Under the pieces are notes generated by a model. The model did not search any database and was not told where the DNA came from. It saw nothing but the letters and a program-made list of their open reading frames with translations. DNA of 64,000 nucleotides from assembly GCA_019913005.1 (NCBI GenBank), contig JAIOHL010000150.1, positions 1-64,000 of the forward strand. The letters run 5' to 3'. Every line of letters starts with the position of its first letter. Position 1 is the stretch's first letter. The stretch is from Anaerolineae bacterium (lineage in GTDB: Bacteria; Chloroflexota; Anaerolineae; Aggregatilineales; J027). Below, in pieces: positions 38,157 through 42,322 of the stretch. Made by a program: the position numbers and the translations under genes.

Positions 38157-38753
38157 ATGTCTACGTCTCGTGCGATCAGGCCGACCCCCGCCTCGGCTAA
38201 AACCGAGATTGATACGCCCTCACAAGGGCAGGTTCAAGTTGCTCCCGTTACACGACGAGAGTTTATGTTCTATGTCTGGGGAGCCAGCATGGCACTCCTT
38301 CTTGCTGCCAGTGGTGGCATTATCGTTTGGTTTGCCCTGCCGCGCTTCAAGGCTGGTGAGTTCGGTGGCGTGATTGATATTACCAGCATTCCCAAACCCG
38401 GCGAAGCACCTGTGAAATATCCGGCAGGTAAGTTCTGGATGTCCAATGATGCCGACAAAGGGTTAGTTGCGCTGTACACCGTCTGCACCCATCTCGGCTG
38501 CCTCTATGCGTGGGCACAATCAAACTTCCGCTTTGAATGCCCCTGTCACGGCTCGAAATATACGACGGATGGAACATGGATCGAAGGGCCTGCGCCTCGC
38601 AGCCTTGACCGTTTCCCGATTGTGGTTACGACCAACAATGGTGAACTGACCAACAACGAAGCGGGTGATCCTATCCCCGGTCTGTCCCCCACCAACGTCG
38701 TCAACGTCCGCGTGGATACCGGCAAGCGTATCAAACGTGACGGTCGTGTCTAA
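38157..38753 (+). CDS. qcrA: Rieske [2Fe-2S] protein of a cytochrome bc-type complex
   Basis: The 198-residue iron-sulfur subunit accepts electrons from quinol at the Qo site and passes them to a c-type haem. A single membrane anchor lies at about 37-61. The cluster ligands are clear: Cys110, His112 (CTHLGC) and Cys128, His131 (CPCHG), with Cys115 and Cys130 forming the expected disulfide. AGGAGG lies about 10 bases before ATG. Cytochrome b begins 45 bases downstream and the two c-type cytochromes follow, so this is the first gene of the respiratory operon. A bc1/b6f-type assembly is inferred from the set. Confidence 0.95.
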   Translation: MSTSRAIRPTPASAKTEIDTPSQGQVQVAPVTRREFMFYVWGASMALLLAASGGIIVWFALPRFKAGEFGGVIDITSIPKPGEAPVKYPAGKFWMSNDADKGLVALYTVCTHLGCLYAWAQSNFRFECPCHGSKYTTDGTWIEGPAPRSLDRFPIVVTTNNGELTNNEAGDPIPGLSPTNVVNVRVDTGKRIKRDGRV

Positions 38754-38798: not shown

Positions 38799-40589
38799 AT
38801 GTCGGTACTGCCTGTTCCGTCCATCTTGGACGACATCAAAGAAAAGGGTGTCCGTAAGGCGGTTTATGAAACGCTGGATCGGACGACAGAGCGCGTCACT
38901 GCCGGGATGAACCTTCAGGATATCCGTGAAGCCCTGCGTGGTGACAAACCCTCACGCCGCCCCAACCCCCGCCTCACTCCCCACGCGGATGGGTTCTGGT
39001 TGCATATGCGTCCTTCGTACTATCACACTGCCGTAACTGGGTTATATCCTACCTTCCGTCTGGGATGGCTTTCGACCTTCTTCTTTGCCTTTGAGATTAT
39101 TACGGGCCTCTTCCTGATGATTTTTTATACCCCATCACCGGATGTGGCCTATAACGATATGAAAAACATCCTCGGCAACGTGCCGTTGGGCCAATTGATG
39201 CGTGACCTGCATCGCTTGGGTGCCGAGGGGATGGTAACGGTGGTGGCGCTGCATATGCTCCGTACCTTTGTCACCGGGTCGTATAAAAAACCGCGCCAGT
39301 TTACATGGTTGACGGGTGTTGTGCTGCTGTTAGTCACCTTGTTCCTCAGCTTTTCTGGCTATTTGCTGCCATGGGACCAACTGGCTTTCTGGGCGGTAAC
39401 AATTGGTACATCAATGGCCGAAGCTGCGCCGCCGGAGGTGGTTGGGACCAATGTCAACTTGCTGTTGCGTGGAGCGCCAGACATCGGGGCAGGTGGTTTG
39501 CTGCGTTTCTATCTGCTGCATGTGTTCGCCCTGCCGCTGATTACCACCATATTCCTCGGCGTTCACTACTACAAAGTCGTACTGCATGGTCATAGTCTGC
39601 CGCCGCGTGAAGAAGAAGTCGGCAAGGACACCGCCAAGCGCGTGCCAATGGATCGTCGTACCTATTACATTCCCGACGTCATGTCGAGCGAATTGGCATG
39701 GATTGGGATGTGGGGTTTCATTTTGGTACTGCTGTGTTTGTGGTTCTTCCATGCCCCGCTGGAAAATCATGCTGACCCACAGGTGACACCGCTGCACACC
39801 ACCGCGCCTTGGTACTTCTTATGGTTGCAGGGGATGTTGAAACTCGGTGATAAGGTCATCATGGGTGTGGTGCTGCCTACCGTCATTTTCGGGTTCTTGT
39901 TTGTGCTGCCCTATATAGATTTGACCCCCAGCCGCCGTTATGCCCATCGCCGTATTGCGCTCTCACTGGGTATGCTGACCTGCCTAGTGCTTGTGATTTT
40001 GACCTACATGGGCACGCCCTATTATGGGGTTTCAACCGCCGCCAACGATGAAGTGGCCCAAGAACTCATTCCGATGGAAGGGGTTGGCGAAATTCGCGCC
40101 GTTCCATTCGATGAATTGCAGGCCAATTTGACGGCTACCGAATCCAGTAATGTGATCTGGACGGTTGAGGTAGATACGTGGAAGAATTCAACAACCCCGG
40201 TGGATTTCGATGCCAACGTTTTGGCGCGTGATCCCAATGCCATCGTCATCCGCGAAGATAACCTTGACCAATTGGAAGAACTGTATAAGGAGAATTATCC
40301 TGAACTGTGGAAGGCCATTGAAGAATATCACCATCTGTTGTATGAGGAATTCTCAGACAGCTTGCCCAATGCCACTGGTTATATCAGCATCTCACTCACG
40401 CAGTCCAATTTGGTTCGCTTCTATATTTTGATGACGTGGGATGTTCCACAGGTGGATGATGAAGGCGAAATCGTCATGAATGATGATGACGAACCCAAGC
40501 TGCTGCTGAATGAGGAAGGCGATCCCATTCGCGCCATCTCTGGCAAACAGGTCTATATTCACGAAGAATCTGAGTGGCACGCCCATTGA
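38799..40589 (+). CDS. qcrB: Cytochrome b subunit of the bc-type complex
   Basis: The 596-residue integral membrane subunit carries the two b haems and the quinol sites. Haem ligands are His138 and His251 (13- and 14-residue spacing partners His152 and His266). Core helices run to about 430. The canonical quinol-site PEWY tetrad appears as APWY at 346-349 (TTAPWYFLW). After the last helix a hydrophilic extension of about 160 residues (about 435-596), acidic and with a LEELYKENYPELW helix, is unlike standard cytochrome b. A ribosome site AAGGAG precedes ATG 38799. A 6-bp hairpin (40597-40626) lies in the 98-base gap before the next gene. Confidence 0.94.
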   Translation: MSVLPVPSILDDIKEKGVRKAVYETLDRTTERVTAGMNLQDIREALRGDKPSRRPNPRLTPHADGFWLHMRPSYYHTAVTGLYPTFRLGWLSTFFFAFEIITGLFLMIFYTPSPDVAYNDMKNILGNVPLGQLMRDLHRLGAEGMVTVVALHMLRTFVTGSYKKPRQFTWLTGVVLLLVTLFLSFSGYLLPWDQLAFWAVTIGTSMAEAAPPEVVGTNVNLLLRGAPDIGAGGLLRFYLLHVFALPLITTIFLGVHYYKVVLHGHSLPPREEEVGKDTAKRVPMDRRTYYIPDVMSSELAWIGMWGFILVLLCLWFFHAPLENHADPQVTPLHTTAPWYFLWLQGMLKLGDKVIMGVVLPTVIFGFLFVLPYIDLTPSRRYAHRRIALSLGMLTCLVLVILTYMGTPYYGVSTAANDEVAQELIPMEGVGEIRAVPFDELQANLTATESSNVIWTVEVDTWKNSTTPVDFDANVLARDPNAIVIREDNLDQLEELYKENYPELWKAIEEYHHLLYEEFSDSLPNATGYISISLTQSNLVRFYILMTWDVPQVDDEGEIVMNDDDEPKLLLNEEGDPIRAISGKQVYIHEESEWHAH

Positions 40590-40687: not shown

Positions 40688-42322
40688 ATGGAAACTAATC
40701 AAAAACAACCTTTCATGGAATTTCCGTCCGTTGAGTCTCGCGTGATTGCCGGTATTCTGTTTTTTACCGGAACGCTGATTCTGCTGGCATGGGCGGCAAT
40801 TAATGAACCTGCTCGTATGACTGAATTTACCGAGCGCTTCAATGGGCGTTCGGTTGAAACAGGCGCAATCCTGTTTGAAAACAACTGCTCGACTTGTCAT
40901 GGGGACGAAGGTTATGGGATCGCGGGTCGTGCGCCTGCGCTGAATAACCCCTTCCTCTTGAACCATGACTTTTTTGCGGAACATGACCGCCAAATTGCTT
41001 CTCTAAATGACCAAATTGCGGCAGTAGACGCGGAAAAAGAACCCGAAAAGAAAGCAGAGATTGAAGGCCAACTCGCATTGGTCGAAGCCCAACGCCAAGA
41101 ACTCTATGAAACCCTGCGTTACGACTACAGTGAACAATGGGCCGCTCTCGATGCCCAACTCACGGCCCTTGACAGCCGGATTCAAGAAGAATTGGCGATT
41201 CCTGCCAGCTTGCTTGGGGTCGAAGTCCAAAAACGCAGTGATGAAATTTCAGCACTTGAAGCGGAACTGCTCCCCGTGACCGAACGCATCACCGCCGCCC
41301 AAACCGCAGGCCAAACACCCGATGCCGCCGATGTCCAGCAGCAAACCGACCTACAAACCCAAATTGATGCTAAGAAGGCCGAGTTAAGCCCTTATAGCAC
41401 CCTGAACGACGAACGCACCCCCCTATTGGCAAAAACGGGTCGTTACCGCGCTCTGAAGGACGCGCATGAACAGGTCGAAGCCTTGCGTGTGCAAATCGCT
41501 GAACTGGAAAGCCAACTGGCGGCACTCCCCGAAGGTGACGCAGGTCGCGCGGACATCGAATCGCAATTGGATGCATTGCAAAGTCAACTCTCGACTCAAG
41601 AACAAACTCGTGACGATGCCCTGCAAGCGATGGTGGATGCCAAAGACATTATTGACTTCGACCCCGAAGCTCCCAGCCGGATGACCCAACTGAAATGGAA
41701 TGGCACGCTGGAAGACTTGATATACACCACCTTGCTCAGTGGTCGTCCGGTCAGCGCCGCGTATTGGCCTGCCCCAATGGTCGCGTGGTCACAGGATGCG
41801 GGTGGCCCACTGCGTCGTGACCAAGTTCAAAATCTCACCGACTACGTATTAAATTGGAGTCGTGAATTTACCCTCCAAGATGTACGTCGTATCAATCAAT
41901 TGGCGATTGAACCGAGCGCCTCGGCTGGCCCATCCGTAGACGCCGTTTGCCCCGATATTGAAACAAACCCGGATAGCTGCGTGGTAGATGATATTGTGGC
42001 TCAAATCAGCGCCATTGAGATAATGGATAGCACAGCAGGGCAACAGGCTTATACGGAGAATGCCTGTTCAGGCTGCCACTTCTCTGGTAGTGTGATTGCC
42101 CCCGCACCACAAGGGGTCTTTACACGCGCTCAAGGTTATTCCCAACAAGACCCTGCGACCTTCCCAGATGCCCGTCACTATCTCGTCCAAAGTATTTTAT
42201 ATCCCAATTCGTTTTCATCGGATGGTTTCACCGCTGGGGCGATGCCGACTACCTTTGGCAAGACCTTAGATCTTCAAACCCTTGCCAATATCGTGGCCTA
42301 CTTGGAAAGCCAAGACCAATAA
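40688..42322 (+). CDS. Membrane di-haem cytochrome c split by a long coiled coil
   Basis: The 544-residue protein has one N-terminal anchor (about 18-38) and two CxxCH sites, Cys67-His71 and Cys460-His464, with candidate distal Met364 and Met519. Between the first CxxCH and its apparent Met lies a roughly 225-residue coiled coil (about 99-325, heptads of Leu/Ile with Gln/Glu/Ala), so the first haem domain is interrupted. The coil has internal similarity and could be a stalk or an assembly rod. Position after cytochrome b, in the same direction, suggests it carries electrons from the Rieske protein. The split-domain reading is inference from motif spacing. Confidence 0.85.
   Translation: METNQKQPFMEFPSVESRVIAGILFFTGTLILLAWAAINEPARMTEFTERFNGRSVETGAILFENNCSTCHGDEGYGIAGRAPALNNPFLLNHDFFAEHDRQIASLNDQIAAVDAEKEPEKKAEIEGQLALVEAQRQELYETLRYDYSEQWAALDAQLTALDSRIQEELAIPASLLGVEVQKRSDEISALEAELLPVTERITAAQTAGQTPDAADVQQQTDLQTQIDAKKAELSPYSTLNDERTPLLAKTGRYRALKDAHEQVEALRVQIAELESQLAALPEGDAGRADIESQLDALQSQLSTQEQTRDDALQAMVDAKDIIDFDPEAPSRMTQLKWNGTLEDLIYTTLLSGRPVSAAYWPAPMVAWSQDAGGPLRRDQVQNLTDYVLNWSREFTLQDVRRINQLAIEPSASAGPSVDAVCPDIETNPDSCVVDDIVAQISAIEIMDSTAGQQAYTENACSGCHFSGSVIAPAPQGVFTRAQGYSQQDPATFPDARHYLVQSILYPNSFSSDGFTAGAMPTTFGKTLDLQTLANIVAYLESQDQ

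Follow-up and report, generated by a model that had tools for sequence, protein, structure and literature searches.

Organization of the locus

The window, a 64,000-nt stretch of a contig from an Anaerolineae bacterium, carries on its forward strand genes for a Rieske subunit, a cytochrome b subunit and two dihaem cytochromes c (Table 1). The third of these genes, an open reading frame with two CxxCH motifs, is the subject of this study. Its placement in a Rieske/cytochrome b operon, as originally predicted, agrees with both the Pfam calls and the neighbourhoods of relatives. The Rieske gene is the operon's first in nearly all relatives whose stretch reaches that far, the dihaem cytochrome gene lies directly 3′ of the cytochrome b gene, and the order Rieske, cytochrome b, dihaem cytochrome c is kept with or without the coiled coil described below in the neighbourhoods long enough to compare. 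The nearest named relatives are the Chloroflexi/Anaerolineae metagenome-assembled genomes CFX5, CFX10 and DTUCFX7. The second dihaem cytochrome gene, whose listed TTG probably lies upstream of the true start, is also the next gene in several loci of the window's own family (f1), in all f5 loci and in one f3 locus. It is missing beside f8 loci, in which the Rieske, cytochrome b and dihaem cytochrome genes are present and ccm genes are not adjacent. In the window the genes that follow the second dihaem cytochrome appear from their translations to be ccm genes for cytochrome c maturation.

Table 1. Positions in the window of the operon genes and of the parts of the coil-bearing dihaem cytochrome c
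Feature	Position	Strand	Basis or remark
Rieske [2Fe-2S] subunit	38157..38753	+	Pfam PF00355, E 1.5e-10
Cytochrome b subunit, 596 aa	38799..40589	+	Pfam PF00033, E 3.1e-40; PF00032, E 1.6e-11
Dihaem cytochrome c subunit with coiled-coil insertion, 544 aa	40688..42322	+	Third operon gene, ATG start
N-terminal hydrophobic helix, residues 17-38	40736..40801	+	Sequence SRVIAGILFFTGTLILLAWAAI
Haem domain 1, first half, residues 46-91, with APALNNPxL loop	40823..40960	+	Alignment to coil-less orthologues
First CxxCH, residues 67-71	40886-40900	+	
Coiled-coil insertion, residues 92-329, five predicted helices	40961..41674	+	Missing from coil-less orthologues; AF2
Haem domain 1, second half, residues 330-400	41675..41887	+	
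Met364, probable axial ligand	41777-41779	+	Within PAPMVAWSQDAGGPLRRDQVQNLTDYVLNW
Haem domain 2, residues 446-541	42023..42310	+	Invariant in alignment A4; PDB profile matches to small cytochromes c
Haem domain 2 ligands, CxxCH 460-464 and Met519	42065-42079; 42242-42244	+	
Second dihaem cytochrome c with C-terminal hydrophobic segment	42406..43326	+	Pfam PF13442, E 4.6e-12; PF00034, E 1.7e-11

The cytochrome b frame continues for about 190 aa past the Pfam cytochrome b domains, which stop at residue 406 (C-terminal extension, window 40017-40586). Coil-less and coil-bearing relatives alike have frames of like length (551-660 aa), and cytochrome b length therefore shows no connection with the coil. 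A second bc-type set, consisting of cytochrome b, Rieske and a tetrahaem cytochrome c, is encoded elsewhere in the same genome (L002; G000:C168:124363-127590); its tetrahaem cytochrome is a 434-aa frame with four CxxCH motifs and no coil.

The hydrophobic N-terminal segment of the dihaem cytochrome is probably a membrane anchor, judging by its composition, and a helix at residues 15-39 appears in the full-length AF2 model at low confidence. Pfam Cytochrom_C matches the protein in two separate stretches. The linker between the haem domains contains two extra cysteines (residues 421 and 431; window 41948-41980; VCPDIETNPDSCVV) that are kept in the genus, are matched by a cysteine pair in L012 and possibly form a disulfide.

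A coiled coil within haem domain 1

The distance from the start of the first CxxCH to Met364, 297 residues, is due to the insertion of about 238 residues between them. A long insert ahead of this Met had been predicted and is real, although the coil was then put at 225 residues. The insertion is best seen against orthologues that lack it, which are encoded directly after cytochrome b in families f5 and f3 of the same order and across the class. In these proteins APALNNPRLF runs straight into NGERLQEMKWAGGL, followed by YWPEAMPTW, so that the two halves of haem domain 1 are joined directly. Two earlier proposals, that the CxxCH and Met flanks belong to a single interrupted haem domain and that the coil emerges from one of its loops, are both borne out by these orthologues, which occupy the same operon position without the coil. 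Insert lengths were taken from the distance between CxxCH and Met rather than from HMM domain borders, since the first HMM match extends into the coil. This distance is 54-81 residues in coil-less proteins versus 121-315 residues in coil-bearing ones.

The alignment comprised 94 rows, three of which proved to be the neighbouring cytochrome, leaving 91 that were kept as orthologues. Of these 91 rows, 86 have a Met at model position 121, among them every coil-bearing row. The other five are all coil-less f11 proteins, of which two have their Met five columns earlier and three have none there. The original prediction had contemplated coil-less homologues that use a different Met; coil-less homologues do exist, and their Met is the same one. 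Since the halves are contiguous and the Met is shared in the coil-less orthologues, Met364 is very probably the axial ligand of haem 1. The coil-less form of haem domain 1 also matches the PetJ, CcoP and SoxX models from CxxCH to past the Met, with scores below the naming cut-offs, and the CcoP structure 9g83, to whose Met-Pro Met364 is aligned.

From these comparisons, the residues flanking the coil are predicted to form one class I cytochrome c domain with the coil inserted in one loop. Packing of the two halves is argued from homology because AF2, run on the full-length protein, modelled the coil well and haem domain 1 below pLDDT 50 (with five near-identical sequences, the four relatives being 83-97% identical). 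Alignment to horse cytochrome c matched the W/Y of the 60s helix and was ambiguous in the preceding loop; we therefore infer, rather than read from the alignment, that the loop before the 60s helix is the insertion site. The poorly modelled haem domain is the sole point in favour of a different anatomy, in which the first CxxCH would make up, with some other ligand, a whole haem domain ahead of the coil and residues 330-400 would be a separate domain. The coil begins only about 20 residues after the CxxCH, however, and the coil-less orthologues unite the halves and retain the Met, so this arrangement is scarcely credible. We have little doubt that the anatomy is that of an interrupted haem domain with an inserted coil.

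Distribution and constraint of the insertion

A tree of 83 proteins was built with the coil columns left out, by a method that infers no root. All coil-bearing rows fall on one side of a 100/99 branch, and one change between coil-less and coil-bearing forms suffices. The coil-less group nearest to the coil-bearing clade is f5. Every row from other orders and classes is coil-less, which makes a single gain the simple reading of this unrooted tree; the coil was apparently acquired once. No loss is seen among the 43 coil-bearing tree rows. The homologue comparison, suggested originally as a check on conservation across Chloroflexota, found the coil in only one clade of one order of that phylum. 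Viral contigs, searched in order to deepen the alignment, contained no homologues.

Insert lengths fall into classes of none, 61-64, 73-75, 92-116, 178-188 and 224-255 residues, and at least three transitions between the long forms (178-255) and short ones are required. Lengths are nonetheless stable locally: each of the nine f8 proteins, which come from five genera, has an insert of 106-107 residues, and in the window's genus the spacing exceeds that of the coil-less form by 237 residues in five of five proteins. The 544-aa length recurs with zero indels in four further genomes of this genus. Within the genus, dN/dS of the coil is 0.03-0.06, similar to the haem 1 halves, and haem domain 2 has a value above that of the coil (0.13-0.15) in the most distant species comparisons. 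The constant length and low dN/dS argue against a frame or assembly artefact, and they indicate that the coil is constrained rather than a drifting spacer.

Several length changes across the order could also be expected of a near-neutral insertion, that is, a tolerated loop expansion shifted in length by slippage or duplication and with no function beyond folding. Fixed lengths within families, a dN/dS that resembles that of the haem 1 halves and falls below that of haem domain 2 in the more distant pairs, and the lack of any loss among the coil-bearing tree rows all speak against such an origin, which we regard as highly improbable. A separate feature of the gene emerged in comparison with CFX10 (L034 6001-7632), where dS rises from about 0.1 over codons 1-91 to 0.87 in the coil, a jump that suggests a recombination breakpoint inside the gene.

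Predicted shape of the coil

A, L, E, Q and D are abundant in the coil, which has a net charge of -29. When residues 85-338 were modelled alone, AF2 predicted helices at 88-116, 119-168, 173-206, 213-279 and 285-317 with a mean pLDDT of 84.8 and a pTM of 0.62. Large hydrophobic residues recur every 3.4-3.7 residues, exceeding shuffles for most segments: none of 500 shuffles reaches the repeat of 95-170, 213-279 or 255-318, and only 173-206 is not above shuffles (11%). Pfam returned only marginal coiled-coil matches for the coil, below cut-off, and Foldseek searches of the PDB with the full-length and coil models returned nothing below E 0.1. With VIA-align, residues ~157-255 align to the two-helix stalks of dynein, SMC and ABC exporters, a likeness of shape only, and both ends of the coil align to one three-helix bundle, PspA 2pms, over 106 residues at 3.2 Å. 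The Z scores of 7.6-9.5 in these alignments likewise measure shape, as helical models reach such values without kinship.

The model is consistent with an antiparallel rod made of a three-helix base beside the haem domain and a two-helix hairpin, the path being a predicted one. The predicted hairpin would have arms of about 45-60 residues each (~7-9 nm) and a tip near residues 207-212; the position of the tip is suggested by the structural matches, and the helices and repeat come from AF2 and the periodicity.

Possible roles of the coil

In the arrangement that we favour, the protein would be the cytochrome c subunit of an Anaerolineae-type bc complex, with a membrane helix at its N-terminus and a pair of class I haem domains on the outer side. 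The insertion would sit just before the helix leading to the Met ligand of haem domain 1, and the coil would project from the loop before the 60s helix with the haem fold left intact. Since both halves of haem domain 1 are conserved, the haem site should remain intact. As c-type cytochromes acquire their haem on the outer face of the membrane, the arm would be extracytoplasmic. Such a rigid outer-side arm might dock the complex to a partner or space it from one, the partner being perhaps the caa3 oxidase or another protein. Repeated length change suggests a mechanical or docking role, and docking or spacing as the function of the coil is a tentative proposal to which we give at most an even chance. 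The statement as a whole, joining the interrupted-domain anatomy to an outer-side arm for docking or spacing, could equally well be right or wrong.

A more specific form of this proposal is that the coil is a dedicated tether, holding the bc complex at a set distance from the terminal oxidase or another acceptor and organizing a supercomplex, with its length tuned in each lineage. In actinobacteria a dihaem cyt cc subunit joins complex III directly to complex IV (PMC8361435), so a bridging role is conceivable here. The window's genome has one copy of COX1, and the adjoining CoxII has a C-terminal CxxCH and appears from its translation to end in a cytochrome c domain, as in oxidases of the caa3 type; this is the only haem-copper oxidase found in the genome. 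COX1 is common in coil-less relatives too, and its presence was rejected as an explanation for the coil, as it occurs with and without one. The neighbourhoods compared contained no gene found only beside coil-bearing copies. As there is neither a coil-specific neighbour gene nor a COX1 confined to coil-bearing relatives, no docking partner is indicated. The roughly fourfold range of coil length across families sits badly with a single fixed distance, and we consider a dedicated tether doubtful, if credible. The length of COX1 itself varies: within the window's family, genera g1 and g4 have frames of 655-686 aa (L133/L134, G000:C340, and relatives), longer than the roughly 550-610 aa of most other relatives.

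Self-association offers another use for a rod of this kind, in which the coils of the two bc-dimer protomers, or of neighbouring dimers, would pair and so arrange the complexes within the membrane. In shape the coil model is like elongated antiparallel bundles of the BAR type (non-significant matches, Foldseek E above 0.1), and many such bundles dimerise. Complex III, moreover, is an obligate homodimer (PMC8361435). Against pairing stand the great variation in coil length across lineages and the net negative charge, which is unfavourable to like-like packing, and we consider this role unlikely. The weak structural matches also include EmrA and HlyD, whose long alpha-hairpins cross the periplasm; together with the lack of any coil-specific respiratory partner gene, they would fit a coil that fixes the cytochrome to the cell wall or surface layer, or spaces it from them, setting its height and making no contact with another respiratory complex. 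The coil contains no recognised wall-binding motif or domain, however, and a wall anchor is improbable. Of these roles we continue to favour docking or spacing by an outer-side arm.

Relation to known cytochromes c

The closest counterparts are the coil-less dihaem cytochromes c of Anaerolineae bc operons (L038, L041), which are orthologous and share the operon position and the positions of CxxCH and Met, but are without the 61-255-residue insertion of the coil-bearing forms. QcrC of the actinobacterial bcc complex likewise has two class I haem domains per subunit and is encoded with Rieske and cytochrome b, and it provides the top-ranked PDB matches of the haem 1 profile. The score against the QcrC model NF050122 is nevertheless only 25 bits (cut-off 200), and the hydrophobic anchor is here at the N-terminus; we know of no coiled-coil insertion in QcrC. 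CcoP of cbb3 oxidases also has two class I haem domains, and its W.G.L, GR and MPxW region aligns across haem domain 1. It differs in lacking a coil, the score against TIGR00782 is 32.8 bits (cut-off 179.95), and the gene here lies in a Rieske and cytochrome b operon. As for the rod, periplasmic adaptor alpha-hairpins, SMC/Rad50 arms and the dynein stalk are likewise long antiparallel two-helix arms extending from a globular domain, as predicted here, but they have no sequence relation to the coil and their Z scores are below the level of kinship.

The suggestion that the protein might be a new type of bc-complex subunit is not upheld, as its counterparts are a standard dihaem cytochrome c found across the class, usually of about 300 aa and without the coil. 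The subunit is thus, by its orthologues, of the ordinary dihaem type; the kind of subunit was already known, and only the inserted coil is new. Few protein folds are as compact or as well studied as the cytochrome c domain. A search of the open-access literature found no precedent for a coiled-coil insertion in cytochromes c, which is weak evidence with most subscription journals outside the search. A 240-residue rod in one loop, apparently gained once and then changed stepwise in length under strong purifying selection, constitutes a natural experiment in respiratory complex architecture, and because a graded length series and a coil-less sister group exist in the same operon, the function of the coil is directly testable.

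Further variation in gene content was seen in family f2. There the dihaem cytochrome gene is often followed by one for a monohaem cytochrome similar to haem domain 2 (L024 2400-3113; also L013, L029, L032 and L026), apparently a duplicate of that domain. In L104 and L108, of f2 genus g24, the coil-bearing dihaem cytochrome itself is present in two adjacent copies, a tandem duplication.
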